Source: Oceaniferula flava
GTDB taxonomy: Bacteria > Verrucomicrobiota > Verrucomicrobiia > Verrucomicrobiales > Akkermansiaceae
Direction of reading: 5' to 3'
Length of the DNA stretch: 64,000 nt
Assembly (NCBI RefSeq): GCF_016811075.1
Contig: NZ_JAFBGL010000002.1
Location: 372,001-436,000 of the forward strand
In this document: positions 154 through 18,852 of the stretch, piece after piece
Layout of the letters: each line of letters begins with the position of its first letter
Position numbering within the stretch: the stretch's first letter is position 1
Translations under genes and position numbers: made by a program
The notes under the pieces: model-generated
Databases searched by the model: none
Told to the model about the DNA's origin: nothing
The model's input: the letters and a program-made list of their open reading frames with translations, nothing else

Positions 154-627
154 TTACACGCGGGTTTCCAAAACTCTACCGACGAGAGCGGCACAGAATT
201 CCAGTTCATCCATATCGGCGGAGGTAAATGCCTGGCTATTTTCCGCAGGTGAGTCGATCTGACTGGTGTGCACGCAAGTGATTACGCCTGCCATTTCCCC
301 GGCAGAGACCACCGGGACTACGATCATGGCATCAGTCTGAATGCCGAGCTGCTGGTCGAGGCGGGAGCTGTGCTGAGGATTTGCTTGGATATTGTTTTCA
401 CAAAACGGCTGCCCGGAAGCGAAGACCATACTGATCAGGCCTTCACTGAGCGGGTGGCGGTAGTCGCCAATAAAGCGCGATGAGTGCGGACCGTGACCGA
501 GCAGTGGGTGGAGGTGATCGTTTCCAGCCAACCAAAGCGCGCAATCGCTGCAATGGACAACGCCACAGCAGCGTTGGAGCACCTCAGTGAGGAGCGCGCT
601 GGTGGCGTCATCGATTTCGGGGGGCAT
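154..627 (-). CDS. Single-domain GAF protein with N-terminal cysteine cluster
   Basis: A 157-residue soluble protein that is almost entirely one GAF domain (about residues 10-155). Features typical of the fold are the central segment PLSEGLISMVFASGQPF and the strand pair VVPVVSAGEMAGVITCVHT. GAF domains bind small ligands or mediate dimerisation; no effector domain is attached, so it probably acts through a partner. Cysteines at residues 20, 21, 26 and 29 form a CC-x4-C-x2-C group at the start of the domain, which is unusual and could bind metal or respond to redox state (inference). It lies 28 bp downstream of a small anti-sigma-like gene on the same strand, so the two probably form one operon. 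It is not an obvious free-methionine sulfoxide reductase, the other common single-GAF protein. Ligand and partner are unknown. Confidence 0.75.
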   Translation of the reverse strand: MPPEIDDATSALLTEVLQRCCGVVHCSDCALWLAGNDHLHPLLGHGPHSSRFIGDYRHPLSEGLISMVFASGQPFCENNIQANPQHSSRLDQQLGIQTDAMIVVPVVSAGEMAGVITCVHTSQIDSPAENSQAFTSADMDELEFCAALVGRVLETRV

Positions 628-655: not shown

Positions 656-877
656 TTATGCGTTGTTGTGGAGAAGGTCGGCCAAGGTGCTCAAGGCATG
701 TTCATTGGCTAAAATCTCACGAGAAAGATGGCGTCCCTCGTCCTCGGGAAGCTCGCCAGCAGCCATCTTTTCCAGTTTCTGGCGAAGTTCTGGAGTAATG
801 GCCTCGCTGGAACGTCCGGAAACTTCCGGAGCAAAGGCAGTGAGGAATTCAGAGATGGTTGCAAATTCGTTGTTCAT
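656..877 (-). CDS. Small anti-sigma-like protein, function unknown
   Basis: A 73-residue protein when started at the ATG giving MNNEFATISEFL. The frame stays open to an ATG at 964, but those extra 29 residues are basic and look untranslated. The body, ending with ELRQKLEKMAAGELPEDEG and a helix rich in Leu and Glu, resembles the short helical domain of ECF anti-sigma factors (the 'LDGELSPEE...' pattern). The His/Cys zinc ligands of that family are absent: only one His sits near the expected place. It has no membrane segment. It is the upstream partner of the GAF gene. I see no Shine-Dalgarno sequence before the start. A role as a regulator or adaptor is inference from the resemblance only. 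Confidence 0.55.
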   Translation of the reverse strand: MNNEFATISEFLTAFAPEVSGRSSEAITPELRQKLEKMAAGELPEDEGRHLSREILANEHALSTLADLLHNNA

Positions 878-1130: not shown

Positions 1131-4100
1131 ATGCATAGTATTTCGTTAGCTCCCCCCGAAACAATGATGGTTCATCCACTTAACCCATTTTGTCCGCAAA
1201 TTACCGAGAGGAGACTTCGTGTCTGCTTTTCAAGTGAAAATGGTTTTGCGCTGATCGCCTCGATATCGGTGATGGTGCTGCTGGTAATGATCTCACTGGC
1301 GATGTTGAGCCTTTCCACCATCCAGCTGCGTTCCAGTGAGGCCGGCAGGGATGCAGAGGAGGCCAAGACCAATGCGCGCATGGCGCTGATGATGGCGATT
1401 GCCGAATTACAGAAAACAACGGGAGCTGACACCAGGATCACCGCCCCGGCAGATGCTCTTTCCACCAGCGACGCTCAAACTAGTAAGCATGTCAGGCAGC
1501 TCACTGGAGTGTGGCGTTCCTGGGAGGGGCTGGATCACGATACCTCAACGGGGCGGCCGATTGCTCCTGATTACGATATCAAAGGAGCAGCCGATCAGAG
1601 CGGCTCCGGAAATGGACGCTTTCTACGCTGGCTCATCTCAGACGATACCCAAGACCTTTACGATCCCTCTAACCCACCAGCTCTGGACGAAACCAGCGAG
1701 ACCGTGCCGCTACTGGCCGCAGGCACGCTGCCAAGTGGAAGCGATCAAGAAGTGCACGTGGTTCCTACGGAAATCAGCAACGACAACGGTCGCGGTGCCG
1801 TGGCTTGGTGGATTCAAGGTGAGAATACCAAGGTCCGTCTGAAACCCACCACCGCTCCGGTGTCCACCACCGAAGCCGTTGATCAGATGGTGGTTTCTCC
1901 CGGTCCCAGTGGTGATGCATTCAGCATCGAAGATAGCAGTGAGACCGATAAAGCGCTGACACAACCATCGCTGACTTTGGTTAAAAACTCATCGTCGTCA
2001 GGCGCGGCGGATCCGGCCGAGTTCTTTCACGACCTCACCGCGCATTCGAAAGGTTTGTTAACCAACAATGCCAACGGTGGCTGGAAGCGTGATTTATCGA
2101 TTTTTACCGAGAGTTTTGCGGCTATTTCAGAGCCTTTCCCCTCGTTGACCCTTGAGCCAGGAGAGGTCTATGAGGCAAGTAAGCAGCATGTCGGCGCAGG
2201 TGCTGGATCGGCACTCATTTACCCTTGGGGGAATCAGACTAGCGTCTATCCGGACGCCGTGAGCTGGTCGGCTCTCGTAGAATACATGACGCAATATCGC
2301 CGTGTTCAAAGTTCGGGCAACCCCATCACGAAGGTTCCCTTGTATTCCAGTAAGACGCACACCGATTGGATCGATAAGGTTAGGCATCTGCCCGTGCTGG
2401 CTCGGGCACACTTGGTGGTTTCACTCACAGCGCGTGAAGATACCGCCAGCTCGACCTATGTGCCCTCGATCCTGATCACCCCGGTAATCACTCTTTGGAA
2501 CCCATACAGCATCGCTCTCGATACCAGCAATTACAACAACATGCAGTTTGCCCTCAGCGATGTGGCTTGTCCGGTGAACTTTCAATTCAAGGTCGGGGCC
2601 GACTCGGTTACCAAGGACTTGGCTAAAATTGTCGCTCACGCCACGAACAACAGCAGCAACATGACCTGTTATATTCCGATCGCTTCGCCGAACTTGTGGC
2701 TGCCGGGCGAAGTTAGGGTGTTTTCTCCTCAGGGGAATGCGATTGCGAACAAGAATATCAAAAGCAAGATCACCTTTGTGGAGGGCTATCGTCCTGACAG
2801 TGGTCTGAGTTACAAACTGCTCAACAATGCGAACCGGTATTACCCCGCACAGCCAGGCACCGTTCAATATTCAGTGGGCAAAGCCACCATGGACGCCACC
2901 TTCACAGGTCCCAACGTCAAGGGGACAGGTTTATATTTTACACAGAAACTCGGCACGGGAAGCAATGCCAGCACCACGAATGTGCAGAACATGCTCGATA
3001 CCGATGATGCCCAGCGGATGTTGGGCGAAGAGGTGGTTTTGACCGCTACCAGTTCGGCATCTTTGTCTAGTTTGGCCTCTTCCCCCCAACCAGTTCTCAG
3101 CGTCATTATGGGCCTGCGCTACGGTCGCGACACCAATCCGAACCGAGACAACATCATGGTCAATGGGATTCACAACATGAACCCAACCGTGGGCTTCATC
3201 GTGGGTGGCGCAGCCGAGGCTGACGAACAGGACATGCAGGCACGCTTTGATGGTTTCCCCTACAACATTCAGCTGTATGCGGTGAATTCCTATGCCGACC
3301 CAGGCATGCCCAGCGGTATTACCGATGACCTTGAAGGCTACATTGGCAGTGGATTTGGCGCCAGTGATGGTCTGGCAAACTTGGTGCTGCTGGAAATCCC
3401 AAGTCGTCCGCTGCGCACGATCGGGGCGCTGCAGCATTTCAACGTCAATGCCTGTGATGATGCCGGCCCATACACGCTCAATGCCTTGGGCAACAGTCGC
3501 ACCAGCCCGTTTATCGAAAGCGATGAAATCCGCGTCAAACCAGTGGGTGGCGGAGCTGAATATGGGCACGATCATAGCTATGCGATCAACCACGTGATGA
3601 TGGACGATTGGTTTGTCTCCTCCATCACGCCCGGCATGAACGACTGGTCGGCCAATCAAAGCCGCAGCATGGAAGACGTCTATGCCGATCACCTCAGCGG
3701 CAGCGAGCCTCTGCCCAACCATTATTATACCCCCGCGAATGCGATGGGGGTGTCCGATGCCGCCGGTGAAGCAGCCGATTTTCTGAGCTATGAAGATGCC
3801 TGGCAGAAAGTCGCCGCAGAGCTCGAAGTCACGGGCATGTTCAACGTCAACTCCACCTCGGAACTGGCCTGGGCCATGTTGTTGAAACGGAACTTCAGTG
3901 GTGGCGATGGTCCCGGAGTTTTGACTTTAAACGACAGCACTCCAGGCAACGCGAGTGCCTCGGCCTCGTTGGTGGAGAACAGCGGCACTCCTTTCCCTCG
4001 GACGCTTATTAGCTCGGACAGCTCCGCAGGTGCCGGCGGGTACACTGAGCTCACTCAGCCAAGGCGTTTCACGGACGAGCAAATCATGGCCCTGGCGCGT

Positions 4101-4637
4101 GAGATTGTGGCAGAGGTGAAGAAGCGTGGCCCTTTTCTCTCGCTCTCTGAATTTTACAACCGTCAGCTTTCGGGAGACAGTGACCTCGCTCAAGCTGGGG
4201 CGGTTGAGAGTGCTTTGATGCGCTTGGCTGAGGGGGGGAGTAGTGAAAACCCCTTCCGTGATTTGCAAACGATCTTCACCGACACAGCCTCCTCTGTGAC
4301 TCCAACAGGTTCTCCTCTTACCTATCCCTTCCCAGCCGCGGCCGAAGGAAACCCTGCCTATGGCTTCCCTGGCTGGACTCGCCAGGCGGATGTGCTTCGC
4401 CCTCTTAGCGGAATCCTAACAGCCCGTGATGATACCTTTGTCATCCGTGCTTACGGCGCCAGCAAGGATGATTCAGGCAAGGTGTTAGCCGAAGCCTGGT
4501 GCGAGGCCGTGGTGCAGAGAACGGCAGAATTTGTTGACGGCTCCGATAAATACGCCCTGCCGAGCGATGATGAGCAGTCGTATGGTCGTCGATACGAAGT
4601 GAAAAAATTCCGATGGATGAACCCTAACGAGATCTAA
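1131..4637 (+). CDS. Giant prepilin-like protein (Verru_Chthon cassette A / GspK-like), copy 1
   Basis: A 1168-residue exported protein. A short basic leader is followed by a class III (type IV prepilin) signal: Gly then FALIASISVMVLLVMISLAM, about residues 38-58. Position +5 of the mature protein is not Glu, as in the tip pseudopilin GspK/PilX rather than major pilins. A helix (EEAKTNARMALMMAIAELQ) continues the pilin stalk. Near the C-terminus, GMFNVNSTSELAWAM and REIVAEVKKRGPFLSLSEF resemble the 'N-x-N-T/S ... R..GPF.S..E' signature of GspK. The tail carries ARDDTFVIRAYG and AWCEAVVQRTAEFVD, typical of the proteins NCBI calls Verru_Chthon cassette protein A. The usual B, C and D cassette partners are absent; instead a small secreted protein follows 19 bp downstream. 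A close paralog lies at 15370-18852. Several internal Met codons exist near the start, so the exact N-terminus is uncertain. The role as the tip of a pseudopilus-like structure is inferred. Confidence 0.8.
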   Translation: MHSISLAPPETMMVHPLNPFCPQITERRLRVCFSSENGFALIASISVMVLLVMISLAMLSLSTIQLRSSEAGRDAEEAKTNARMALMMAIAELQKTTGADTRITAPADALSTSDAQTSKHVRQLTGVWRSWEGLDHDTSTGRPIAPDYDIKGAADQSGSGNGRFLRWLISDDTQDLYDPSNPPALDETSETVPLLAAGTLPSGSDQEVHVVPTEISNDNGRGAVAWWIQGENTKVRLKPTTAPVSTTEAVDQMVVSPGPSGDAFSIEDSSETDKALTQPSLTLVKNSSSSGAADPAEFFHDLTAHSKGLLTNNANGGWKRDLSIFTESFAAISEPFPSLTLEPGEVYEASKQHVGAGAGSALIYPWGNQTSVYPDAVSWSALVEYMTQYRRVQSSGNPITKVPLYSSKTHTDWIDKVRHLPVLARAHLVVSLTAREDTASSTYVPSILITPVITLWNPYSIALDTSNYNNMQFALSDVACPVNFQFKVGADSVTKDLAKIVAHATNNSSNMTCYIPIASPNLWLPGEVRVFSPQGNAIANKNIKSKITFVEGYRPDSGLSYKLLNNANRYYPAQPGTVQYSVGKATMDATFTGPNVKGTGLYFTQKLGTGSNASTTNVQNMLDTDDAQRMLGEEVVLTATSSASLSSLASSPQPVLSVIMGLRYGRDTNPNRDNIMVNGIHNMNPTVGFIVGGAAEADEQDMQARFDGFPYNIQLYAVNSYADPGMPSGITDDLEGYIGSGFGASDGLANLVLLEIPSRPLRTIGALQHFNVNACDDAGPYTLNALGNSRTSPFIESDEIRVKPVGGGAEYGHDHSYAINHVMMDDWFVSSITPGMNDWSANQSRSMEDVYADHLSGSEPLPNHYYTPANAMGVSDAAGEAADFLSYEDAWQKVAAELEVTGMFNVNSTSELAWAMLLKRNFSGGDGPGVLTLNDSTPGNASASASLVENSGTPFPRTLISSDSSAGAGGYTELTQPRRFTDEQIMALAREIVAEVKKRGPFLSLSEFYNRQLSGDSDLAQAGAVESALMRLAEGGSSENPFRDLQTIFTDTASSVTPTGSPLTYPFPAAAEGNPAYGFPGWTRQADVLRPLSGILTARDDTFVIRAYGASKDDSGKVLAEAWCEAVVQRTAEFVDGSDKYALPSDDEQSYGRRYEVKKFRWMNPNEI

Positions 4638-4656
4638 GATTTTCGAATTACAGAGA

Positions 4657-5364
4657 ATGAAAACCCAAGATAAAAAAATGGTCCGACTGATACTGCTGCT
4701 GAGTGGATTGCTGTCAGCCATCGGTCTGGCTCAGGAGGCTGAAAACAAGGGCCGCCCTGTGAAATTGATGTATTACCTGGCCCCCGCGGATGCCCCCAGT
4801 GAAGCCTATCTCTATGCCGGAGGCAAGCAGGTGGCACAGACGGAACTGACCCGCACCAATTTTTCCGAAACCTTTAAGATCCCTCAGGGTGATCTGTTGT
4901 TGCGCTTTCTCAGCTCGCCACTGGCAGAGGGCCAGCGGCTGCCGAAGCGAGCTCCCTTGGTTAGAATCCCGGAAAAGTGGCAGAAGGTGCTACTGCTGGT
5001 ATTCGAAGACCCGAAGAACAGGGTGATGCCCATCCGAATTCAGGCGATCAATGCCAGCGATCGGCATTTTGGCCTCGGCAGCATTTACATGATGAACTTT
5101 TCTGAGGCGGGAGTGGTCGGTTCCATCGGCGACAAGCATCTGAAACTCAAACCGAAGTCGCTGAAAATCGTCAAGAACCCGGTGCAGAAAAATGGCTATT
5201 ACCCGGTGAAGTTAAATGCCGTGATCCGCGGAGAAAAAAAACCGCGCCGACTTGTGAAACAGATGTGGAGTCACAGCGACCGGATTCGCAATGTACTCTT
5301 TATCATGCCGAAGCCTGCGCCGCAGCATACCACCTACTACTGCGCTCCGATCCGCGATTTTTAA
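4657..5364 (+). CDS. Small secreted partner of the giant prepilin-like protein, copy 1
   Basis: A 235-residue protein with an N-terminal signal peptide (MVRLILLLSGLLSAIGLAQ, cleavage after Ala-Gln likely); translation could start at Met1 or Met8. No known domain is recognised. It is homologous to the 228-residue protein at 14630-15316. Shared features are an Ile-Pro-x2-Trp segment followed by a Leu/Val-rich strand, an Ala-Ile-Asn-Ala/Ser-Ser-Asp motif, a Tyr-Pro-Val motif, a Trp-x-His motif and a closing strand LFIMP. The mature protein looks beta-rich and basic. In both places the gene directly follows a giant prepilin-like gene, so the proteins probably work together in the periplasm or at the surface (inference). 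Its stop codon overlaps that of the convergent sigma-factor gene by three bases. Confidence 0.8.
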   Translation: MKTQDKKMVRLILLLSGLLSAIGLAQEAENKGRPVKLMYYLAPADAPSEAYLYAGGKQVAQTELTRTNFSETFKIPQGDLLLRFLSSPLAEGQRLPKRAPLVRIPEKWQKVLLLVFEDPKNRVMPIRIQAINASDRHFGLGSIYMMNFSEAGVVGSIGDKHLKLKPKSLKIVKNPVQKNGYYPVKLNAVIRGEKKPRRLVKQMWSHSDRIRNVLFIMPKPAPQHTTYYCAPIRDF

Positions 5365-6056
5365 GAGGAGCTAGCGCCGACCAGAAAGCCGGTGGATGAG
5401 CGGCAGAGACTGAGGAAGTCTTCCCACTCGAGCTCCAGCCATGGATCGGCGGCTTTCAGCTCGGCCATAGTCTCCTCCTTGATGGTGGTCATCACCGATG
5501 AGATTGCCCGGCTGACCTTGGATTGGCTCCAGCCGAATAAGGTTCCCACGGCGTCTTGTTTGACACCATGGACCACGACTAAGCGCATAAGCAGAAGATG
5601 GAGAGGATCGCAACGACTAATGGCATGCACGAGGGCATCGCGGATGAGTCCCACGAGTTGATCCTCGTCCGGAGGACTTGCGCCATCCTCGCCTGCGAGC
5701 ATGTCGAATTCATCTGTGGGTGCTGAATCCAGGTTACGGCTGGGTAATTGACCTTGGAACTTGGCGTGGCGTTTGTAATCGATGAGTCGATTGATCGCCG
5801 CGCGAGTTAGGAAAGCACGAACCTTGCCCTTACCATTGTATTTTTCCAGTAGGGGAGGTTTTCCATTTTTCCCTCCAAAGCAATCTGCGATAAGGTCCGC
5901 TGCGATATCTGAGGCCTCGCTGTGGCTGGCTCCTCGTTTGACGAGGACTGCGTGTAGCCAGTTCAGAGTTTCCTGACCGCCAATCTGGGCGCAGGCAGCC
6001 GCGTCACCGCCGAGTGCTGCTGCAACCAGTTCGCTATCGTTGGGATGATCTGACAT
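5361..6056 (-). CDS. ECF-type RNA polymerase sigma factor
   Basis: A 231-residue protein with the sigma-70 region 2 pattern at about 30-105 (SEASDIAADLIADCF, then KVRAFLTRAAINRLIDYKR, the promoter-melting and -10 recognition helices). Region 4 is at about 150-200 (DAVGTLFGWSQSKVSRAIS, a helix-turn-helix for the -35 element). A C-terminal extension (PWLELEWEDFLSL) is unlike typical ECF proteins and may be regulatory. It is the last gene of a minus-strand group: outer-membrane barrel, FecR-domain protein, sigma factor, with only 26 bp to the FecR gene. No membrane anti-sigma factor is next to it. The FecR protein is exported with no membrane segment after its signal peptide, so it cannot itself contact a cytoplasmic sigma factor. 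The regulon is unknown. Confidence 0.85.
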   Translation of the reverse strand: MSDHPNDSELVAAALGGDAAACAQIGGQETLNWLHAVLVKRGASHSEASDIAADLIADCFGGKNGKPPLLEKYNGKGKVRAFLTRAAINRLIDYKRHAKFQGQLPSRNLDSAPTDEFDMLAGEDGASPPDEDQLVGLIRDALVHAISRCDPLHLLLMRLVVVHGVKQDAVGTLFGWSQSKVSRAISSVMTTIKEETMAELKAADPWLELEWEDFLSLCRSSTGFLVGASSS

Positions 6057-6082
6057 AGGATTTGATCGGTTAAGTCTGACTG

Positions 6083-6964
6083 TTAGGGGGTCACATCGGG
6101 GGGCGTGCCATTGCCTCCTGTTGTGTCTCCCGGATAATCGTCAGGATAGTCTGTCTCGTACTCGTAGGGATCTGGCTTGTCGAGAATGTCGCGAAGGTCG
6201 TTGCGGTCCGCGATGACTCTTGAACCCGGATGGCGATTGACTTGGTTCTCGCTCACCAAGATGCCTTTGCGTTTGAGTTTTTCCTGCGCTTCCACGGCGA
6301 GAGCAATGTGCCGGCGAGCTTCAGGTGAGAGCGGACCGAAGACTTGGTTGCCTGCGAGCAGGGAGCTTTCCAGCAATCGTTTCAGGTCAACGTCCACCGG
6401 GCGGGTGATGATTGTCCCGTCGGGGCGCATGACGATCATTTGGCCGGCAGGCACTTTAACTTTCTGGGCTCGGCGGAACAGGCCACCTTTGCCTTTTTGT
6501 TTTCCCAGATTGAGAGACACGGTGCCTTCCAGAGTAATTAATTTGACCCACTTATCACGGTTGTATTCCATCAGCAGGGTCGTGCCTGTGATTGCCGCGG
6601 TGACGGTGGCTGTGCGAATGGTAGCTCCTCCGGCGCTCTTGGGAACTTGTAGTAAAATAGAGCCCTGATTGAGATTAATATCGCGACTGCCCTGGCGGAA
6701 GGTGAAGGCTGAGTTCGCTCCGAGCCGAGTGACTGTCCGATCCTGGAAGGTTAGTTCAGCACGAGAGCGGCGGCCTGTCTGCACGGAGGTATGGCCGCGG
6801 ACGGTATCTCCCACTTTCGCTTGGCGGGAGGAGTTCGGCTGGTGCAAACGGACGTCATTGACGCGGGTGGTGACTTTGGCTGATTGTAAATTATCCGCCT
6901 GCAGGCTGGGCCCCAGCAATAAACTGGCAGCGCTGAGTGTGGTGATGAGTGAGATTCGGCTCAT
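6083..6964 (-). CDS. Secreted FecR-domain protein
   Basis: A 293-residue protein with a signal peptide (residues 1-23, ending SLQAD) and a FecR beta-helix-like domain at about 30-150. Recognisable parts are VGDTVRGHTSVQTGRRSRAE, the DRTVTRLGANSAFTF strand, and ATVTAAITGTTLLMEY followed by LITLEGTVSLN. A helical segment rich in Glu and Lys follows, then an acidic, Tyr/Pro/Gly-rich tail (DPYEYETDYPDDYPGD). Unlike classical FecR it lacks the N-terminal cytoplasmic anti-sigma part and any retained transmembrane helix. It is therefore a periplasmic or surface member of the family, often found near CHASE2 cyclases and outer-membrane proteins. It lies between the barrel gene (85 bp upstream) and the sigma gene. 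Confidence 0.85.
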   Translation of the reverse strand: MSRISLITTLSAASLLLGPSLQADNLQSAKVTTRVNDVRLHQPNSSRQAKVGDTVRGHTSVQTGRRSRAELTFQDRTVTRLGANSAFTFRQGSRDINLNQGSILLQVPKSAGGATIRTATVTAAITGTTLLMEYNRDKWVKLITLEGTVSLNLGKQKGKGGLFRRAQKVKVPAGQMIVMRPDGTIITRPVDVDLKRLLESSLLAGNQVFGPLSPEARRHIALAVEAQEKLKRKGILVSENQVNRHPGSRVIADRNDLRDILDKPDPYEYETDYPDDYPGDTTGGNGTPPDVTP

Positions 6965-7049
6965 GGCGATGTGGGGTTGTTGAGTGGCGTTGTTGTTGTG
7001 TCGCTGTCTAGGACGGGGTGAACGGTGGATGCATTCAGTTTTTTATCGC

Positions 7050-8021
7050 TTAGAAATTGAAGGTCATCCCAAGACCAAGGCCTCCTTGAAAAGCGCTGTA
7101 ATCGGCGGCGCCGTCGGAGAGGTTGGAATCGTTTTCCGCGTAAAGTAAGGAAGCGTGAACTCGGGCAGAGCGATTCAATTGCCAGTAAAGTTCGGCCCCA
7201 GCGACTTGGTTCACGTCGTCGCGCCCAGCCTGATCGTAATCGTAAAGTGCTAGATGATAGAAAAAGACCGCCTTCAGGTCGTCAGTGATTTGGTAGGTGT
7301 AGCCAAGGTGCGCGCTGTATTCATCACGCTCCAGTCGACTCGGTTTAGTATTCAGATCATAGGCATAATCCAAGGCGACGTAGGCGGTGTGTTTCGGCGT
7401 GCTGAGGAAGACCTTGTGGGCTCCAACGCGCAGCCGATGTGAATTGTAGATTCCGTCACTGAGTGAACCAGAGGTAACACGGGCGTATTCGTATCGCGCA
7501 AAAAACAGCATGTCGAAGAACTCGGGGACGATTTTCACCAATCCCACACGACCGTCCGTGCGCTCGAAGTCCAGGCGGCTGGGCGAATCATAGCGATAGA
7601 TGCTCTGGGTGATGGAGAAATCGGCAAAGAGGTTATCCCCGATGCGTGGTTTCCAGGACGCGGCGGCCCGAGTTTTCCAGATCACACCATCGTCTTCGTT
7701 GCTTCGAGTGCTAGCCACGTTGTCCGTCCAGAAGAGGTGGGTCGCGATGTCAAAACGCAGTGGTGCGCGTCCTTGGTAACGTTTTAAAATCAACTGGTCT
7801 CCCAAGTCCGAGTCGCCGGGGCTGGTGGGGGCGAAACGCTTCTGCTGGTCGAGGTTCTGATCGCTGTATTCGTCTGGGTCGAAGCCGTCTCCCAAGAAGC
7901 GTTCGACGGGTGAGAGGGCGTCAATGGCAAAGCTGGCGACAGAACTCGCGGTGAGGGTAGCGACCACAAGGGCGGGTGATAGGAACCCTGAAGGTTTTGA
8001 TAGAGTAGCGATTTTTCGCAT
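7050..8021 (-). CDS. Outer-membrane beta-barrel protein
   Basis: A 323-residue protein with a signal peptide (cleavage near SVASFA). From about residue 90 on it shows regularly alternating amphipathic strands rich in Tyr, Phe and Arg (for example FDIATHLFWTDN, NLFADFSITQSIYRY, HTAYVALDYAYDLN, DLKAVFFYHLALYDYDQ, RVHASLLYAEND). It ends in the strand GLGLGMTFNF with a terminal Phe, the usual signal for BAM-dependent insertion. About 60 residues between signal and barrel (AIDALSPVERFLGDGFDPDE...) are low in strand character. No TonB plug domain is present, so it is not a FecA-type receptor. It starts the minus-strand barrel-FecR-sigma group and is divergent from the cyclase, with a 66-bp shared upstream region. 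It is probably a porin-like or exopolysaccharide/adhesin-related barrel; the substrate is unknown. Confidence 0.8.
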   Translation of the reverse strand: MRKIATLSKPSGFLSPALVVATLTASSVASFAIDALSPVERFLGDGFDPDEYSDQNLDQQKRFAPTSPGDSDLGDQLILKRYQGRAPLRFDIATHLFWTDNVASTRSNEDDGVIWKTRAAASWKPRIGDNLFADFSITQSIYRYDSPSRLDFERTDGRVGLVKIVPEFFDMLFFARYEYARVTSGSLSDGIYNSHRLRVGAHKVFLSTPKHTAYVALDYAYDLNTKPSRLERDEYSAHLGYTYQITDDLKAVFFYHLALYDYDQAGRDDVNQVAGAELYWQLNRSARVHASLLYAENDSNLSDGAADYSAFQGGLGLGMTFNF

Positions 8022-8087
8022 GGCAGGTGGGTTGTTGTTCAGTTACACAGAGATAACGAAGGTCAACCTAGGGCACTAACATTAGCG

Positions 8088-10250
8088 ATGACAAGCAAAC
8101 AGACCAATAATAGCACGCGTTCTGGCGAAACTCTGCGGTGGGGTCGCTGGGATCAGGACACCCGGAGCAGGGTGTTAGCCTGCTTCATTTGCGGTCTACT
8201 CGCTGCCGCGATGTGGTGGTTGCCGGTCATGGGAGACTTTCTGGCCAAGCAGGAACGGATGCTGCGGGACTTTTTCACCGCCCACGACCATCGATTGAAA
8301 CCCAGAGAGGATTTTGTTTTTCTGGGCATCGATTCCGCCAGCCTGACCCTCGACGGCCCTGCTGCGGAAGTGGTGGCAGGAAACTCGACGCTGGAAAAAA
8401 TGTCGAAGCGTTATCCTTGGGACCGCCGGGTTTATGCAGAGGCCATTGACCGCCTCGCCAATGCGGGGGCTAAGTTGATCATCATTGATCTCGTTTTCCC
8501 CCAAGGCGCCACTGCCGAGGAGGATGAGGCGTTGGCTGCTGCGATAGCGCGACACCGCAACAAGGTGGTGCTGGCGTCCGCTTTCATGGCTCAAGCCGCC
8601 GGCGATCAGCAGACGGTGACTCAGATGGTGGAACCTATTGAGCCGTTTCTAGGACCACTCGATAGTGAAACACCGTCAGGCTATGTCAATTTCTGGCCTC
8701 ATTACAAAGATCGGCTAGTGCGCGAAGTGCAGCTGAGTAAAACCCTCAGAGAGGTCAATAATCAGCCGCGGCGATCGGATGAGCCGGTGTTTGTGCCTCT
8801 CTCTGTGGCGGCGGCACGGCAGTTGGGAAAAGAGCCGACCGCGCCGAGTCAGATCGCCCGGTTCCGCATGGCGAGGGTGCAAGGGCGCAATGTCGACGAG
8901 GTTTATGAGCCTCAAAGTTTGTATCGCATCTTTGTGCCGAGCGATTGGCAGCAGTATCGTGAGGCGGCATTTTTTCAGGACAAGGTGGTCATTATCGGGC
9001 CGGCGGCTCCCACCTTTCAAGACGCGCACGACACGCCGGCAGGTAAGGTGTATGGTGCCCAGCTGCACCTTCACGCACTGGGGGCGATTCTTGAAGACGC
9101 TTGGTATCGTGAAGGCTTGTTAGGCGACGGGCTTTTGTTGCGTTGGATTCTTTGCGGTGTCGCTCTGATGGTTTCTTGTGCAGTGGCCTTTGCCTGGAGC
9201 CGGGTAGGGAGGTTGCTGCTGGCCTTGTCAGTAGCCTTTGTCCTTTGGTTGGGCACCGCCTATTTCACCTGCTACTTCACCGGGGTGGTCATTGGTGGTG
9301 TGCCATGGATGGCTACGACCTCATCCGGGATTTTTGGCGCGATGATATGGCAGGCCATCACGGAACGTGCGCGCCGGCAGCAATTGCACCGTCATTTGCA
9401 GAGATCGATGTCGCCGGATGTAGCTGATGCCATCGTGAAAGCTCCGTCCGGCTACTACGCGGCAGCTTCAGGAAATAGGAAAGAGGTGACCGTTCTGTTC
9501 GCCGATGTGCGCGACTTCACCACACGTTCGGAGCAGCAGGATGCGGTGCAGCTGGTGAGCCAGCTGAACGAATACCTCGAGAAAATGGTGGAGGTGATTT
9601 TTGCCCATGGTGGCACGGTGGATAAATTCATCGGCGATGCCATTATGGCAACGTGGGGCGGGCTGGATCGCGATGACTCACAAGCTCAGGCCGAGGCCTC
9701 TGTGCAGGCAGCCAAAGGGATGTTGCATGAGCTGGCGAAGTTGAATGCGAAGTGGGCGAGTGAAGGCTTGGAACCGTTCCACATAGGTATCGGTATTCAC
9801 CATGGCGAGGCGGTGGTGGGCGAGGTCGGCTCGGATCAACGCACTGACTTCACCGTCATTGGTGATGCGGTCAACCTGGCATCCCGGACTGAGGGTTTGA
9901 CCAAAAAGTTGGCTGTCGAGTTGCTCATTTCCTCTGCAGTGTATGCGCATCTGACCGAGCCGCAGGGGTGGGTCGAAGTGCTCAGTGTGCGGGTCAAGGG
10001 ACGCGATGCCGCGGTGTCACTCTACACGCCATTCCCTCACGATGATCAACAACGGCTCGTCTTGGAAGCAGGGGTAGCCGCCTTCCGCAGTGGTGATTTG
10101 AGCAAAGCGACCGCTCACTTTGCTGAGCTCGAAGCAGCTCCCACCTTTGCCGGTGTGGCCCGGTTCTATCAGCAGGAGCTAATGAAGCTGAGTGCGGGCA
10201 CAAAAACGCCGCCCGGATGGGACGGCGTGATTCGGATGGACAGTAAATAG
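8088..10250 (+). CDS. CHASE2-domain adenylate cyclase (class III)
   Basis: A 720-residue membrane protein. One N-terminal membrane segment (about 30-48) leads into a periplasmic CHASE2 sensor (about 55-330; DFVFLGIDSASL, AEAIDRLANAGAKLIIIDLV). Three membrane helices follow at about 345-430 and a class III cyclase catalytic domain at about 460-650. Catalytic features are visible: metal-binding Asp residues in FADVRDFT (about 471-478) and KFIGDAIMATWG (about 512), the Lys of that motif and the Asp-Phe-Thr of DFTVIGDAVNLASR, which favour ATP over GTP, and the transition-state Asn and Arg in the same motif. A C-terminal helical segment of about 70 residues has TPR-like character. It should make cAMP in response to an envelope signal. 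It is divergent from the barrel/FecR/sigma genes, suggesting a shared circuit (inference). Confidence 0.9.
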   Translation: MTSKQTNNSTRSGETLRWGRWDQDTRSRVLACFICGLLAAAMWWLPVMGDFLAKQERMLRDFFTAHDHRLKPREDFVFLGIDSASLTLDGPAAEVVAGNSTLEKMSKRYPWDRRVYAEAIDRLANAGAKLIIIDLVFPQGATAEEDEALAAAIARHRNKVVLASAFMAQAAGDQQTVTQMVEPIEPFLGPLDSETPSGYVNFWPHYKDRLVREVQLSKTLREVNNQPRRSDEPVFVPLSVAAARQLGKEPTAPSQIARFRMARVQGRNVDEVYEPQSLYRIFVPSDWQQYREAAFFQDKVVIIGPAAPTFQDAHDTPAGKVYGAQLHLHALGAILEDAWYREGLLGDGLLLRWILCGVALMVSCAVAFAWSRVGRLLLALSVAFVLWLGTAYFTCYFTGVVIGGVPWMATTSSGIFGAMIWQAITERARRQQLHRHLQRSMSPDVADAIVKAPSGYYAAASGNRKEVTVLFADVRDFTTRSEQQDAVQLVSQLNEYLEKMVEVIFAHGGTVDKFIGDAIMATWGGLDRDDSQAQAEASVQAAKGMLHELAKLNAKWASEGLEPFHIGIGIHHGEAVVGEVGSDQRTDFTVIGDAVNLASRTEGLTKKLAVELLISSAVYAHLTEPQGWVEVLSVRVKGRDAAVSLYTPFPHDDQQRLVLEAGVAAFRSGDLSKATAHFAELEAAPTFAGVARFYQQELMKLSAGTKTPPGWDGVIRMDSK

Positions 10251-10277: not shown

Positions 10278-10703
10278 CTAGAGCTCGGGGAGAGATCCTC
10301 CACCATCGAGCGATGATCCTTGGCCGGGATTCAGTGGGGGAAGCAGGCCTCCGTCGGTAGGTAGGCTTCTTTCGTCCGGCAGGGTAGGTGCTTTGTAATT
10401 TTTAGGAGAAAACCAGCTGCGCGAGTTGGAGGCGAAACGCTGAGAATTGAGATGGCGCTCCCAAGCGAGAGCGCGATCGGCACCAGTGGGCATTTCTTGC
10501 AAATCTTGAGCTCGCACGGTGGCGATGGGCACACGGGACGGGATGATGTTTGATGAGATGGATTTCACCGATTTGACCGACTTCTTAGCGAGGTCTGTCG
10601 CGCTGAAATTGCTGCATGAAGTCATGATCAGGCAGGCTGTAAGGGTGAGGCTCACGCGGGTCAACTGGGGGGCGAGGGGGGAAGATTCGTGGGAGTGACT
10701 CAT
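10278..10703 (-). CDS. Small putative lipoprotein
   Basis: A 141-residue protein with an N-terminal hydrophobic segment (VSLTLTACLIMTSCSN) ending in a lipobox-like Met-Thr-Ser-Cys at about residue 30. It is therefore probably lipid-anchored. The remainder is low-complexity: Lys/Ser-rich (SVKSVKSISSN) after the anchor, then Pro/Gly-rich at the end (GGLLPPLNPGQGSSLDGGG). A central stretch (GADRALAWERHLNSQRFASN) may be helical. No known domain is recognised. It converges on the cyclase gene with 27 bp between stops. Downstream of it on the same strand (10704-10853 is upstream of its start) nothing clear is seen. Confidence 0.65.
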   Translation of the reverse strand: MSHSHESSPLAPQLTRVSLTLTACLIMTSCSNFSATDLAKKSVKSVKSISSNIIPSRVPIATVRAQDLQEMPTGADRALAWERHLNSQRFASNSRSWFSPKNYKAPTLPDERSLPTDGGLLPPLNPGQGSSLDGGGSLPEL

Positions 10704-14629: not shown

Positions 14630-15316
14630 TCACGGTTCTTTTCTCTCATCCCTCCGATCGAGCACGCCCCAGACACGCGGGACTTTCTGGCCCGATGAGG
14701 GGACGACAAAAAGAATCTGACGAGCTTTTGGGTGATGCATCCAGTTGGTGCGACAAATGGCAGAACGTTTTTTTGTTTCAGGTAAGACACAATCGATGGC
14801 CACAGGATACGAGCCTCTTTTATCGATGGGGGCTTTGACGATACCTGATTTCCTCGGGCGAACGGAGAGCTGAGTCTGATTCCCGAATTTACCGATGAAA
14901 AGTGCATCGGAGAGGTTGTAAACCATGGTGTCTCCCTTGGCGATGTTACTGTCCGAGCTATTGATGGCCATGACGACGGCGGGGAAACCGGGTCGGTTGG
15001 GCTTTGGGATGAACACTAACAAGCAGCGGCTCCATTGCGCGGGTATCTTGACTGACTGGATGCCACGAGGAACTTCAACTCCCTCGGTAAGCTTGCTCTG
15101 ACTCACGGCCAAGGTCACCTTCCCTTCGGGTATCTCCACTTGGGGGGAGAGATTGCGTCTGGGCAGATCAATCTCTATCGACTTGGTTCCTGTGAAGAGA
15201 AAGGCTGTTTTCGGAGCTCCGCGGTGGGGCTGAAGGAAAATCGCTCGCACAGTGCGAGCCGAGAGCATGGGGGCGGCTACGAGGAGCACGAGAAGGATAA
15301 TCGACTGAATTCTCAT
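14630..15316 (-). CDS. Small secreted partner of the giant prepilin-like protein, copy 2
   Basis: A 228-residue protein with a clear signal peptide (MRIQSIILLVLLVAAPMLSA). It is the paralog of the protein at 4657-5364: IPAQWSRCLLVFIP, AINSSDSNIAKGD, GSYPVAIDCVL and TNWMHHPKARQILFVVP align with the corresponding segments there, and both end near an Arg-Asp. The first 70 mature residues are less conserved. No family is recognised. It lies 53 bp downstream of the giant prepilin-like gene, repeating the order seen in copy 1. A basic, beta-rich periplasmic protein that binds or matures its large neighbour is a reasonable guess (inference). Confidence 0.8.
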   Translation of the reverse strand: MRIQSIILLVLLVAAPMLSARTVRAIFLQPHRGAPKTAFLFTGTKSIEIDLPRRNLSPQVEIPEGKVTLAVSQSKLTEGVEVPRGIQSVKIPAQWSRCLLVFIPKPNRPGFPAVVMAINSSDSNIAKGDTMVYNLSDALFIGKFGNQTQLSVRPRKSGIVKAPIDKRGSYPVAIDCVLPETKKRSAICRTNWMHHPKARQILFVVPSSGQKVPRVWGVLDRRDERKEP

Positions 15317-15369
15317 GGGGGGAGTGTCAGTTAAGGTAGGGGTGATGAAGGTGGATACAAGGTTTCTTT

Positions 15370-18300
15370 TTACAACTCATCTTTTGCAAGCCAGCGAAAT
15401 GCTACGATCTGATAGCGTCGTCCATAACGCTTGTTCACCTCAGACTTCATCTCTGTGGAATAAGGGTCGATGACGCTGGGGTCGCTGGGGTCGACAAATT
15501 CGGCGCTGCGCTGCACCGTGGCTTCACACCATGCGGTGGCGACGATTTTATCAGGGTCAGAGGCATCTCTGGCATCGCCGTAGGCTCGGATGGTGAAGGT
15601 GTCGTCACGAGCGGTGATGATGGGGGCCAGTGGGGTGAGAATGTCAGCCTGGCGCACCCAGCCGGGCACTCCGAAAGCGGAGGACCCCAGAGCGGCTTCT
15701 GGGAATTTGTAATCGGTGTTTCCTGGAGGAGGAGATGTGATCTCAAAGGCTCTTGATTGGATTTCAGCAAAGGGGTTCTCTGCTGAGGTGCCCATGGCTG
15801 CCAAATTATCGAGTGCCTTTTGAATAGTGCTGGCAATGGCAAGGTCCTTGTCCGAAGAAAGTTGACGATTCACAAACTCGGAGAGCGAGAGGAATGGTCC
15901 ACGTTTGCGGATTTCCTCAACAATTTCCTCGGCGAGCGCGTCCACTTGCTCGTCCGTGAGTGCCGGGTAGCCAGCAAAAATGGCGGCGTCACTGTTCAAT
16001 GGGTTGGATTCGGTGGAGCCGGAATTTACCGCCTGATCGCCAGCGATTGAGGTTCTGGGGTAGGGATAGGACCTTGGCGCATCAGAGGTGGTGCTGCCGT
16101 TCGATGCCAAATAGGGGACTTCGCTATCGCGGCTGTGTTTCAAAATAGCTTTCCATGCCTCGACGGATACCGAGTTCACATTGAACATACCGGCTACTTC
16201 TAGCTGGGAAGCAATCGAGGCGTAAGTGTAAACGTTGGTGGCTGAGTTGACATGGTCACTGACGGCATCTTCATCGGCCCCGCTGGCTGGCAGGTAGAAG
16301 CGGTTGGGTAGTCGTTCGACGCCTGTGACATGGTCGCGGTAGACGGTTTCATAATCTCGATCTTCCGAATTGCTGAAATCATCGAGGTCAGGCGCGATGG
16401 AGGATACAAACCAGTCGTCAAAGAGGAGATGGTTGAGCATATAAGTGTCGTCGTTGATCATCCCTGAGTTCACAGACGTCGAGACCGAGACCTGGGTGGG
16501 TTCGAAAAGTGGATGAGCCGAGCCGTTGCCGATCAAGTTGAACTGGAATGGGGGGATGGGGTTGTTGTTGCGGGCGTCGAAGTGCTGCAGTTGCGCTAAA
16601 CTTTGTAGTGGTCGGGTCGGGAGCTCGGCCATCACGCTACGTGTCAGTCCGTCGTAGGCCGATAAACCGGAGACGATATATCCGCTGTTTGTGCTGGCAT
16701 CAAATTGGGGGATATAACGCGTATCATTCCAGCCATTCACGTCTAAGAAGGCAAAATCATAGGGGGCGTTGATCGGGTGGAATACGCCAGAGCCAGCCAT
16801 CGTTGTAAGGCTGGACCCATTATCTTCTTTGCCCACCTCCGCATAGTAATTGAGCGGATTGCTCTGCAGCATGCCTTTCGAATAAAGGTGCTGGTGCTCT
16901 GGCGCGGATGAGATGGGGGTTGCCATACGGAAGCCGAAGATTGCGCTGGCAAAGGCATAGCTGCCAGTGTCCTCAACATCGTCGACACGGTCGACTTCGG
17001 CACTCTGGGTGAGCGGTGGATAAAGCTGCTCGACAACATCTGAGCCTCCGAGCTGATCTTCACGATAGCCCATGCGCTGGGCCAAGGTGTAGGAGCTATT
17101 GATCGTGGTATCGAAGTAGATACCGATGCTGCCGTTCCCTGCAGAGGTATCATTGTAGGCGACTTCTTCGATGCTGTATGGATCGCTGGCATTCACGTAA
17201 ACTTCATTACCTGAATTAATGCGATAAAATCGCAAGCCGCCACCGGGCTGGTATCCGGGCACCAAATCGAGTGTGCGATTAGCGGCATCTTGCGGGCTGT
17301 TATTGCTCAGTCCGAAAATACGCGTGGCACCGGGGGCAAGGGTGAATGAGTTGCGAATCCTCAGCGTGATATCCCCGTTGGTGATCTGCGGAATCGAGGT
17401 GAGCGGGTAGACGGTTGATCCCACTTTAAAGGAGAACCTCAGAGGCACAATTCCTTCGCGGCGGATTCTCATTTGATAGGCTGAGGTGGTAAGTTCCACG
17501 TTGTAGGGGTTCCATAGCGTGACCACGGGCGTGAGCATCAGGCCTGGTTTGTATTTCCCCGCATTGGTGCCACTCACTTGCTTAGTGGAGCAGAGTGAGA
17601 AGACCCACTGAATGCGTGCCAGTTGCGGAATACGACGAACTTTTTCCTGAAAGTTATAACGGTCATTGGCGCCAATGCCAGAAATGTGGGTGTTCATGGC
17701 CGTCTTGGCTGATGAGCCGCTGGTCAGGTTCTGGTATTGCAACGCGTAATCCACCAAGGCGGTCCAAGAGCAGATGGGTGGGACCTTGCCCCATGCTGTA
17801 TTGCGGACGTTGCGGTAGCTCGACCATGGGTAAATCAAGGCATCGTTGGGGAAGCTGCTCTGTGTGGCCTTGTCAAAAGTTTCAATGTCTCCAGGCTCCA
17901 TGGTGAACGATGGAAGGTCGGTGTTAGGAAGCTGTTGATACTGCTCGGACAGCAGAGAGATATCTTTTCTCCAGCCTCCCGTGGCAGTGTTGGTCAACAG
18001 ACCTCGATTATAGGTTGTGAGATCGTGGAATTTTCGCACCTCGGCGCCTGATTCTACGAGTTCTAGACTTTCTCTGCTGGGAACGGTGGAGCCCACAGCG
18101 CGGTCATTGATTTTCCCCAGTCCAAAGGTTTCCGCATCGGCACGTCCATTCGAGCGCACACGCTGATGCCACTCCACCACAGAGGATGGTGTTTCGGTGA
18201 GGTCGGTGTTAATCATCGCCTTGCTGTTGTCCCCACTGGTCCACCAAGCGACCGCACCCCGGCCATCGTTCACCGGTAAGGGGTTGACGTAGACATGTTC

Positions 18301-18852
18301 ATCGGGGCTGGCCACGCTGCCGGAGCCTAGCATTAGAATGTAATCATCGGTTGCAGTTTTGGAAAAATCACTGAGGTCATCGACGCTGGGGCTGGCCGAG
18401 GTAGAAGCCAGCCAACCTAGGAAACGTCCATCGTCACTGGCGTTGGCGGGATCTTTGTCAGGGTCACCTGTGCGTGTTTTTAGGTCGTAGTCCGGAGCCT
18501 TCGGTTTACCCGTGCCGTCATGATCGGTCCCTTCCCAACTTCTCCAAACGCCGGTCGCAGCCACGTGGCTTTCCGACAGTAAACGTGAGCTCGCGGTCAC
18601 TCGCGTGTCGGGCCCTGATAGCGACTGCAGCTGGCCGATGGCCATCATCAATGAAAGTCGAGCATTGTGCCTAGCTTCCTCCATGGCTTGGTCATGGTTT
18701 GAAGACCGCACGGAGATGCTGGACAGTGAGAGCATCGCCAATGCGATCATGGATAAGAGCACCATCACCGATATCGTGGCGATGAGTGCGAAGCCGGATT
18801 GTGTGTGGCCGTGTGAGGAGCCTCCGTTTCGATGGGGGTGTGTAGTTTTCAT
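15370..18852 (-). CDS. Giant prepilin-like protein (Verru_Chthon cassette A / GspK-like), copy 2
   Basis: A 1160-residue paralog of the protein at 1131-4637. The N-terminus is short and basic, then Gly with FALIATISVMVLLSMIALAM, a class III prepilin signal again without Glu5. Landmarks shared with copy 1 are TGVWRSWEGTDHD, NDGRGAVAWW, RGLLTNTATGGWRKD, VVTLWNPYNVEL, HLLFDDWFVSS, AGMFNVNSV, RKRGPFLSLSEFVNRQL and, at the end, ARDDTFTIRAYG, AWCEATVQRSAEFVD and RYGRRYQIVAFRW. The middle parts have diverged strongly, so this is an old duplication or separate acquisition, not a recent copy. The start at 18852 gives a 19-residue leader before the Ser-Gly-Phe cleavage site, which is normal for prepilins and cleaner than in copy 1. 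The partner gene follows at 53 bp. Confidence 0.82.
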   Translation of the reverse strand: MKTTHPHRNGGSSHGHTQSGFALIATISVMVLLSMIALAMLSLSSISVRSSNHDQAMEEARHNARLSLMMAIGQLQSLSGPDTRVTASSRLLSESHVAATGVWRSWEGTDHDGTGKPKAPDYDLKTRTGDPDKDPANASDDGRFLGWLASTSASPSVDDLSDFSKTATDDYILMLGSGSVASPDEHVYVNPLPVNDGRGAVAWWTSGDNSKAMINTDLTETPSSVVEWHQRVRSNGRADAETFGLGKINDRAVGSTVPSRESLELVESGAEVRKFHDLTTYNRGLLTNTATGGWRKDISLLSEQYQQLPNTDLPSFTMEPGDIETFDKATQSSFPNDALIYPWSSYRNVRNTAWGKVPPICSWTALVDYALQYQNLTSGSSAKTAMNTHISGIGANDRYNFQEKVRRIPQLARIQWVFSLCSTKQVSGTNAGKYKPGLMLTPVVTLWNPYNVELTTSAYQMRIRREGIVPLRFSFKVGSTVYPLTSIPQITNGDITLRIRNSFTLAPGATRIFGLSNNSPQDAANRTLDLVPGYQPGGGLRFYRINSGNEVYVNASDPYSIEEVAYNDTSAGNGSIGIYFDTTINSSYTLAQRMGYREDQLGGSDVVEQLYPPLTQSAEVDRVDDVEDTGSYAFASAIFGFRMATPISSAPEHQHLYSKGMLQSNPLNYYAEVGKEDNGSSLTTMAGSGVFHPINAPYDFAFLDVNGWNDTRYIPQFDASTNSGYIVSGLSAYDGLTRSVMAELPTRPLQSLAQLQHFDARNNNPIPPFQFNLIGNGSAHPLFEPTQVSVSTSVNSGMINDDTYMLNHLLFDDWFVSSIAPDLDDFSNSEDRDYETVYRDHVTGVERLPNRFYLPASGADEDAVSDHVNSATNVYTYASIASQLEVAGMFNVNSVSVEAWKAILKHSRDSEVPYLASNGSTTSDAPRSYPYPRTSIAGDQAVNSGSTESNPLNSDAAIFAGYPALTDEQVDALAEEIVEEIRKRGPFLSLSEFVNRQLSSDKDLAIASTIQKALDNLAAMGTSAENPFAEIQSRAFEITSPPPGNTDYKFPEAALGSSAFGVPGWVRQADILTPLAPIITARDDTFTIRAYGDARDASDPDKIVATAWCEATVQRSAEFVDPSDPSVIDPYSTEMKSEVNKRYGRRYQIVAFRWLAKDEL

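Follow-up and report, generated by a model that had tools for sequence, protein, structure and literature searches.

Two adjoining, putative signalling modules in Oceaniferula flava: a probable CHASE2 cyclase receptor and a proposed sigma factor switch that may read cAMP

In a 64,000-nucleotide stretch of the Oceaniferula flava genome (the window), we find two adjoining gene modules that we tentatively read as signalling systems, an envelope receptor making cAMP (module 1) and a sigma factor switch that probably reads cAMP (module 2), and we rate this reading as a whole at a little short of an even chance. Gene content, conservation, co-occurrence and a triple gene fusion were all observed: an outer-membrane barrel, an exported FecR-domain protein and a CHASE2 adenylate cyclase are a conserved core within the host family (Akkermansiaceae), and the sigma factor belongs to a separate module with a small protein, a GAF-domain protein and often a subtilase.

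The barrel, FecR protein and CHASE2 cyclase

The cyclase gene (8088..10250, plus strand, 720 aa) encodes a CHASE2 domain (PF05226, E 6.6e-30) and a Guanylate_cyc domain (PF00211, E 6.6e-22), and is both the one PF00211 gene and the one CHASE2 gene found in the window genome. Its catalytic residues are present (D473, K513, D517, D587, N596, R600), giving it the metal Asp pair, Lys/Asp base pair and Asn-Arg of a class III enzyme beside the CHASE2 sensor; the Lys/Asp pair is the mark of ATP-using class III enzymes. Across a divergent gap of 66 bp (8022..8087), the minus strand carries genes for an outer-membrane beta-barrel protein of the BBP2_2 type (7050..8021, 323 aa; PF10082, E 2.4e-7), a FecR-domain protein (6083..6964, 293 aa; PF04773, E 8.8e-13) and an ECF-like sigma factor (5361..6056). 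A sequence-only reading of this DNA had placed these four ORFs and the gap correctly, and two of its further claims hold. The FecR protein appears to be exported rather than a membrane anti-sigma factor, with a signal-peptide-like N-terminus followed by the FecR domain and no cytoplasmic N-terminal domain (by inspection, and in an alignment of 26), and the barrel has no plug, with TonB and plug families absent at E<=1 in Pfam. The barrel also bears a conserved N-terminal segment, S-x-x-D-S-D-x-G-x-Q (alignment of 21), and no TPR match was found by Pfam in the window FecR or barrel proteins.

Within the host family, FecR lies no more than 4.5 kb from the CHASE2 gene in 39/54 CHASE2 loci, against a chance expectation of ~1% per locus for a random point; both FecR and barrel flank the cyclase in 21 of the 54 (core loci), and 14 further loci encode a FecR protein of 1,200 aa directly 5' of the cyclase. 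In a wider sample of the phylum, for which 60 loci were hand-picked, mostly from the top of a list of 122 genomes with a match, FecR was near CHASE2 in 17/60 loci (18/60 at a looser cut-off), and 35 nearest upstream neighbours of the remaining loci included an M48 peptidase in 8 cases and FecR in 1, so the association with FecR, though strong within the family, does not extend across the phylum. A viral_contigs scan with the cyclase alignment returned 11 loci. Neighbourhoods were mapped with custom HMMs and a length-greedy choice of ORFs in place of a gene caller (L039 was read by hand); L086, a second copy of the window locus, and L130, from Brevibacillus at 23% identity, were left out before counting, and the flanks of the fragment G074:C274 were not taken.

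The closest precedent comes from Sinorhizobium meliloti, where, in the available text of the two papers, the outer-membrane barrel NsrA is required for cAMP signalling by CyaK and CyaD1/D2 (PMC7529298, PMC13001267). The protein encoded upstream of cyaK carries FecR and TPR domains and is 1,197 aa long, and from its place and size we infer that it is NsrA. Both systems encode an exported FecR domain and an outer-membrane barrel beside a CHASE2 class III cyclase; however, NsrA is a single 1,197-aa FecR-TPR-barrel protein on the cyaK strand, whereas the window has two genes, divergent from the cyclase and without TPR, and the two barrels share no detectable homology (hhalign probability 1.1%). 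By analogy, module 1 appears to be a split counterpart of the NsrA-CyaK receptor arrangement. As a barrel/FecR protein has been found by experiment to act via CHASE2 cyclases in S. meliloti, the circuit is less new than the sequence-only reading held: barrel and FecR acting through the cyclase gains from this precedent and from the recurrence of the genes, and the sigma factor as a fixed member of the circuit does not stand. Related arrangements occur elsewhere. In Campylobacterota, a CHASE2 adenylate cyclase clusters with a FecR-domain envelope protein, but the cluster also encodes a phosphodiesterase and a TPR protein, and the available part of the paper mentions no sigma factor for it (PMC9239204). 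The Burkholderia BiofilmReg operon, as far as the accessible text describes it, likewise pairs an exported protein bearing FecR with a receptor of the CHASE2 type; unlike in the window, a histidine kinase serves as the receptor and works with a response regulator, and LysM is found in the FecR protein (PMC5192318).

The sigma factor, its small protein and its GAF partner

Of the four gene calls, that of the ECF-like sigma factor is the least secure, drawn from relatives and from matches below threshold: Sigma70_r2 at E 5.9e-5 (23.2 vs 24 bits), TIGR02937 at 39.3 vs 42.9 bits, and TIGR03001 at E 2.7e-11, far under its cut-off. No sigma4 family matched the protein, which bears a conserved C-terminal extension. 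The gene begins 26 bp after the FecR gene, likely on one transcript, and the same order is seen in L106, L108 and L109. Across the family, though, a sigma gene is present in 4/21 core loci, and we reject it as a constant fourth member of the barrel-FecR-cyclase set; the neighbourhood survey proposed earlier for all four genes therefore has a split outcome, with barrel, FecR and CHASE2 recurring together and sigma seldom joining them. Evolutionarily, the sigma-bearing core loci form one clade with one loss, so the adjacency may be a single event. At the level of whole genomes, CHASE2 is present in 10/10 host-family genomes bearing the sigma gene, vs 38/145 overall.

The sigma gene instead keeps company of its own. 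In 22/24 sigma loci a gene for a small protein lies <=400 bp downstream on the same strand, a GAF gene lies within 4 kb in 19, and a subtilase gene is near in 18; in L104, sigma factor, small protein and GAF are fused in one 466-aa ORF. Among 145 host-family genomes, the sigma gene is found in 10, the GAF gene in 11 and both in 10. In the window, the small-protein gene (656..877, minus strand; the ORF spans 656-964, and a start at 877 would agree with the related proteins) and the GAF gene (154..627, minus strand) are separated from the sigma gene by two intervening plus-strand genes (1131..5364), one Verru_Chthon_A-like (1131-4637) and one at 4657-5364. This pair is paralogous to another at 14630-18852, it interrupts the sigma module and shifts the small protein 4.4 kb from the sigma gene, and in L034 and L106 the sigma and small-protein genes have no such pair between them. 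The region marked out by the sequence-only reading took in its four genes and overlooked the small protein (656-964) and the GAF gene (154-627), which fell outside it, and its statement that the sigma factor has no obvious anti-sigma factor is not supported, given the candidate partner that follows the gene in nearly all loci.

Functionally, the small protein is a candidate soluble anti-sigma factor that weakly resembles an anti-sigma domain. The zf-HC2 profile matched 2/25 of these proteins (best E 0.002) and DdvA gave E 0.099, both sub-threshold; comparison with VIA gave Z 3.5 and, for 45 residues, an rmsd of 2.4, but an unrelated chain did equally well, and Foldseek returned no match at E<=0.001. 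The GAF fold of the window partner is well defined (PF01590, E 3.3e-13; model pLDDT 90.8), and the first PDB matches to its profile were CyaB2 (E 1.9e-19) and the cAMP-bound GAF of Lcd1 (E 2.3e-15). A control GAF from the same genome also had Lcd1 as its best GAF match, but at E 0.014 vs 1.7e-6. Structurally, many GAFs tied in comparison with the model and no ligand class was singled out; the F and E of the cyclic-nucleotide GAF motif are not retained in the window protein. The GAF sequence is closest to cyclic-nucleotide GAFs, a resemblance that is weak as a test of ligand.

Cyclases beside the sigma module, and rival explanations

A class III cyclase gene lies within 9 kb of the sigma gene in 11/24 sigma loci, vs ~0.15 expected at the density of ten host-family genomes. 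These cyclases are of four kinds (divergent CHASE2, NsrA-type CHASE2, TPR-S and HAMP), and the loci that have them are scattered over several places on the sigma tree. For 13/24 sigma loci no cyclase was seen in the flank, some flanks being short, and genome G037 has the sigma factor, small protein, GAF and subtilase and lacks a class III cyclase. In Spartobacteria, L119, L120, L122 and L123 share a run of sigma, small protein, GAF, subtilase, CobW_C and TPR-S cyclase. As for other cAMP readers, PF00027 occurs in one protein of the window genome, a 160-aa ORF, which is rather small to be a CRP that includes a DNA-binding part, and HTH_Crp_2 had no match above cut-off in genome G000.

We posit that a signal reaches the barrel in the outer membrane, that the FecR protein relays it through the periplasm, and that the CHASE2 domain would then set cAMP synthesis in the cytoplasm. 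The most likely working of module 2 is that the small protein sequesters the sigma factor, with the GAF protein deciding on its release. Because module 2 so often adjoins cyclases, cAMP is its most likely signal, read by the GAF directly or via a cNMP-binding protein; interactions, ligand and direction of regulation are here what we infer. The window is one of four loci with the sigma gene placed after those for the barrel and the FecR protein, an order through which the switch may act back on its own receptor. The boldest reading, a cAMP-GAF-anti-sigma-sigma switch, is suggestive. In its full form, with a soluble anti-sigma factor and a cNMP-binding GAF holding the sigma factor, class III cyclases with varied sensors (split NsrA-like, NsrA-type, TPR-S and HAMP) feeding the switch, and the window barrel controlling sigma via cAMP with neither a FecR-type anti-sigma factor nor CRP, we consider it rather unlikely.

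An appreciable possibility, though well below even, is that cAMP from the receptor is read by a stand-alone cNMP-binding protein and that the sigma-small-GAF module is separate, its GAF perhaps binding another ligand, with no more than the neighbourhood in common. A cNMP-binding protein of 160-220 aa is indeed encoded 411-435 bp from the cyclase in 7/23 core-type loci, six of them without a sigma gene at the locus; the window genome keeps its single such protein elsewhere, and sigma adjacency among core loci is confined to one clade. Separate systems sit poorly, however, with a sigma module that adjoins four kinds of cyclase and with CHASE2 in every sigma-bearing genome of the family, and in L110, L118 and L101 the genes for the cNMP-binding protein and the sigma factor are no more than 1 kb apart, which argues that the modules are tied rather than parted.

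The other two accounts concern the sigma factor itself. FecIR-like control of it by the exported FecR protein would suit the close spacing and shared order of the two genes, and the window does resemble FecA-FecR-FecI in grouping a FecR domain, an outer-membrane barrel and an ECF-type sigma gene. But the window set has no plugged TonB-dependent receptor and no membrane FecR protein with an anti-sigma part, and a cyclase is present; the FecR protein lacks a cytoplasmic or membrane part on inspection, FecR occurs without sigma in 17/21 core loci, and sigma factors of this family come with a conserved small partner of their own. We reject this account, which is very improbable, because FecR is exported and sigma has that partner. 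It is also improbable, if somewhat less so, that the sigma module is part of a counter-invader (conflict) system of which the window holds a remnant. The Spartobacteria runs, headed by sigma, would be the fuller form, and published conflict systems include cNMP cyclases, GAF and peptidase domains, with an ECF sigma factor coupled to another; yet the available text of the same papers names no sigma-GAF-subtilase set (PMC7159879, PMC8195603), and the TPR-S part occurs in 5/24 sigma loci, most being without it.

Meaning of the two modules

Module 1 would give a receptor type that experiments have established in one symbiont a second form, in which the receptor is split, and this form should help to find how a FecR domain signals to CHASE2. 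For module 2, the nearest likeness is WhiG-RsiG, where, in the accessible part of the source, a sigma/anti-sigma pair answers to a nucleotide messenger, c-di-GMP, which binds directly to the anti-sigma factor and arms it (PMC8325347); module 2 differs in having a separate GAF protein and, by our proposal, in using cAMP rather than c-di-GMP. Our literature searches found no paper on a sigma/anti-sigma pair that responds to cAMP or cGMP, and module 2 would be such a switch if it works as proposed. It would then be a compact system of three proteins, or of one in the case of L104, that could be tested in E. coli.

The barrel, FecR and CHASE2 genes

In the window, genes for a barrel (7050-8021, minus strand) and an exported FecR protein (6083-6964, minus strand) lie divergent from a CHASE2 adenylate cyclase gene (8088-10250, plus strand), with a sigma factor gene at 5361-6056 (minus strand). 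The positions that a sequence-only reading had assigned to all four were borne out, and profile scans agreed with the domains, at sub-threshold scores for the sigma factor. The cyclase is both the only CHASE2 gene and the only class III cyclase of the host genome (Akkermansiaceae; 3.95 Mb, 98.5% complete). A lipoprotein-like gene adjoins it (10278-10703, minus strand), present at 4/55 loci searched, all within the genus.

Across 54 family CHASE2 loci surveyed for neighbours, FecR was found ≤4.5 kb from the CHASE2 gene at 39, beyond 4.5 kb but inside the stretch at six more, and nowhere in the stretch at nine, part of which are contig ends; the chance expectation from FecR density is ~1% within 4 kb of any point. 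At 21/54 loci the cyclase is adjoined by both FecR and a window-type barrel, and 20 of these 21 core loci have the window layout (cyclase, then divergent barrel and FecR); barrel and FecR are swapped in order at locus L053, and the barrel is present only as a fragment at L052. At another 14/54, a FecR protein of ~1,200 aa or longer is encoded directly upstream of the cyclase on the same strand. Outer-membrane barrels typically end in phenylalanine, as do 16/16 proteins compared (these 14, the long FecR protein of L128 and the one encoded upstream of Sinorhizobium meliloti cyaK), and the L128 protein matches a TonB-receptor barrel profile. The window layout of barrel, FecR and cyclase recurs at three loci from the same taxonomic order (L191-L193), and the pairing is not general in the phylum, since FecR lies near CHASE2 at 17/60 loci of a phylum-wide sample.

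Other neighbours were also recorded: an M48 peptidase gene often just upstream of the cyclase outside the class (L157-L184; 8/35 neighbours scanned), giant proteins of ~1,650-2,650 aa adjoining NsrA-type and related CHASE2 loci (L061, L062, L066, L067-L069, L071, L076, L077), and FecR and barrel repeated in tandem at L039:3080-8552, where a second small protein is encoded close to GAF and subtilase genes.

When the window cyclase was searched against plasmids (tblastn), S. meliloti replicons came top, the product being CyaK wherever annotated, and the product of the gene immediately upstream of cyaK is 1,197 aa long and contains FecR and TPR domains. Its place and size fit NsrA, an outer-membrane protein whose barrel reportedly spans 600-1200 and which is reported to be needed for signalling via the CHASE2 cyclases CyaK and CyaD1/D2 (PMC7529298, PMC13001267). 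Other papers describe CHASE2 cyclases clustering with FecR, TPR and phosphodiesterase genes (PMC9239204), and FecR beside CHASE2 kinases (PMC5192318). A CyaD1 variant deleted for CHASE2 makes cAMP constitutively (PMC5498481), which suggests that CHASE2 holds the enzyme back. Given the NsrA and FecR-CHASE2 precedents, the first half of the circuit proposed from sequence, in which barrel and FecR protein signal to the cyclase, is likely, and it is of a kind already known.

The sigma factor and its partners

The same proposal had made the sigma factor an output of the circuit alongside cAMP. While its other three genes co-occur at 21/54 loci, the sigma factor is present at only four of these (the window, L034, which is on one contig with L106, L039 and L040), which form one clade of the cyclase tree with one sigma-less row. 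It occurs in 10/145 family genomes, each of which is one of the 38 CHASE2 carriers (Fisher 5.7e-7, kinship ignored). A search of genome_contigs gave 25 sigma loci, of which the 24 from Verrucomicrobia were mapped for neighbours: a small protein of ~70-95 aa is encoded ≤400 bp downstream on the same strand at 22, a GAF protein ≤4 kb away at 19, and a subtilase nearby at 18, though none was seen near the window locus or L034, from a same-genus genome. This GAF protein occurs in 11/145 family genomes, ten of them the sigma-factor genomes. A single 466-aa ORF (L104:9855-11255) joins sigma and GAF domains, identified by HMM, with a small-protein-like stretch, recognized by inspection; it adjoins a 3,261-aa repeat protein. 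We consider it quite probable that sigma factor, small protein and GAF act in one switch.

In the window, the small protein (656-877, minus strand) lies 4.4 kb from the sigma gene and the GAF protein (154-627, minus strand) is separated along with it, by two plus-strand genes (1131-5364), whose paralogues, 37% and 31% identical, occupy 14630-18852; L034 has no such insert. In these paralogous cassettes, the first gene has a pilin-like N-terminus and a weak match to Verru_Chthon_A.

The small-protein profile gave sub-threshold matches only. zf-HC2 matched 2/25 members (best 0.002; other families score alike), the DdvA anti-sigma domain reached E 0.099 by sequence, below unrelated chains, and Foldseek rank 3 (E 6.7) by fold, where VIA scored it at Z 3.5 with an rmsd of 2.4 across 45 residues, level with acetone carboxylase. 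Several of these point towards an anti-sigma domain, and on balance we favour the small protein as the anti-sigma factor.

Candidate readers of cAMP

The best PDB matches of the GAF profile were CyaB2 cyclase GAFs (1.9e-19), the cAMP-bound Lcd1 GAF (2.3e-15) and then phosphodiesterases. A control SpoIIE-type GAF protein from the same genome also has Lcd1 as its top GAF hit, at 0.014 versus 1.7e-6 for the window GAF alone, so that a cyclic-nucleotide ligand is suggested at most. A class III cyclase flanks 11/24 sigma loci: divergent CHASE2 (L106, L108, L109), NsrA-type CHASE2 (L118, L128), TPR-S (L119, L120, L122, L123, L127) or HAMP (L111). Ten family genomes carry 16 class III cyclases over 45.6 Mb, a density at which ~0.15 such loci would be expected, and Spartobacterial density may differ. 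Placing the five context labels on the sigma tree takes 8 changes. Counting against the link, no cyclase is seen in the flanks of 13/24 loci, and genome G037 has no class III cyclase at all. A Spartobacterial run of sigma, small protein, GAF, subtilase, CobW_C and TPR-S class III cyclase genes (L119, L120, L122, L123; sigma at ~2141 or ~8983) resembles an operon linked to the cyclase, perhaps of the conflict type, and is not described in the literature surveyed.

The main rival to cAMP reading by these sigma-associated proteins is a stand-alone cNMP-binding protein, encoded 411-435 bp from the cyclase on the opposite strand at 7/23 core-type loci (L009, L037-L039, L048-L050), where it is likely the cAMP receptor of the core module. 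Such a protein also lies ≤1 kb from the sigma gene at L101, L110 and L118, however, which ties some sigma loci themselves to cyclic nucleotides. The window genome has a single one, on a different contig, and no CRP-type helix-turn-helix over the cut-off (two sub-threshold matches); its lack of CRP is a weak argument, because 37/38 CHASE2 genomes have cNMP-binding proteins.

Among the papers listed in a literature search, none describes a sigma switch set by a cyclic nucleotide and wired in this way; the nearest idea is the RsiG-WhiG pair, set by c-di-GMP (PMC8325347). That the sigma factor, small protein and GAF read cAMP in any way is a tentative proposal, somewhat short of even, and reading by the GAF itself is less likely still. 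The barrel, FecR protein and CHASE2 cyclase probably constitute one envelope receptor that feeds cAMP synthesis.
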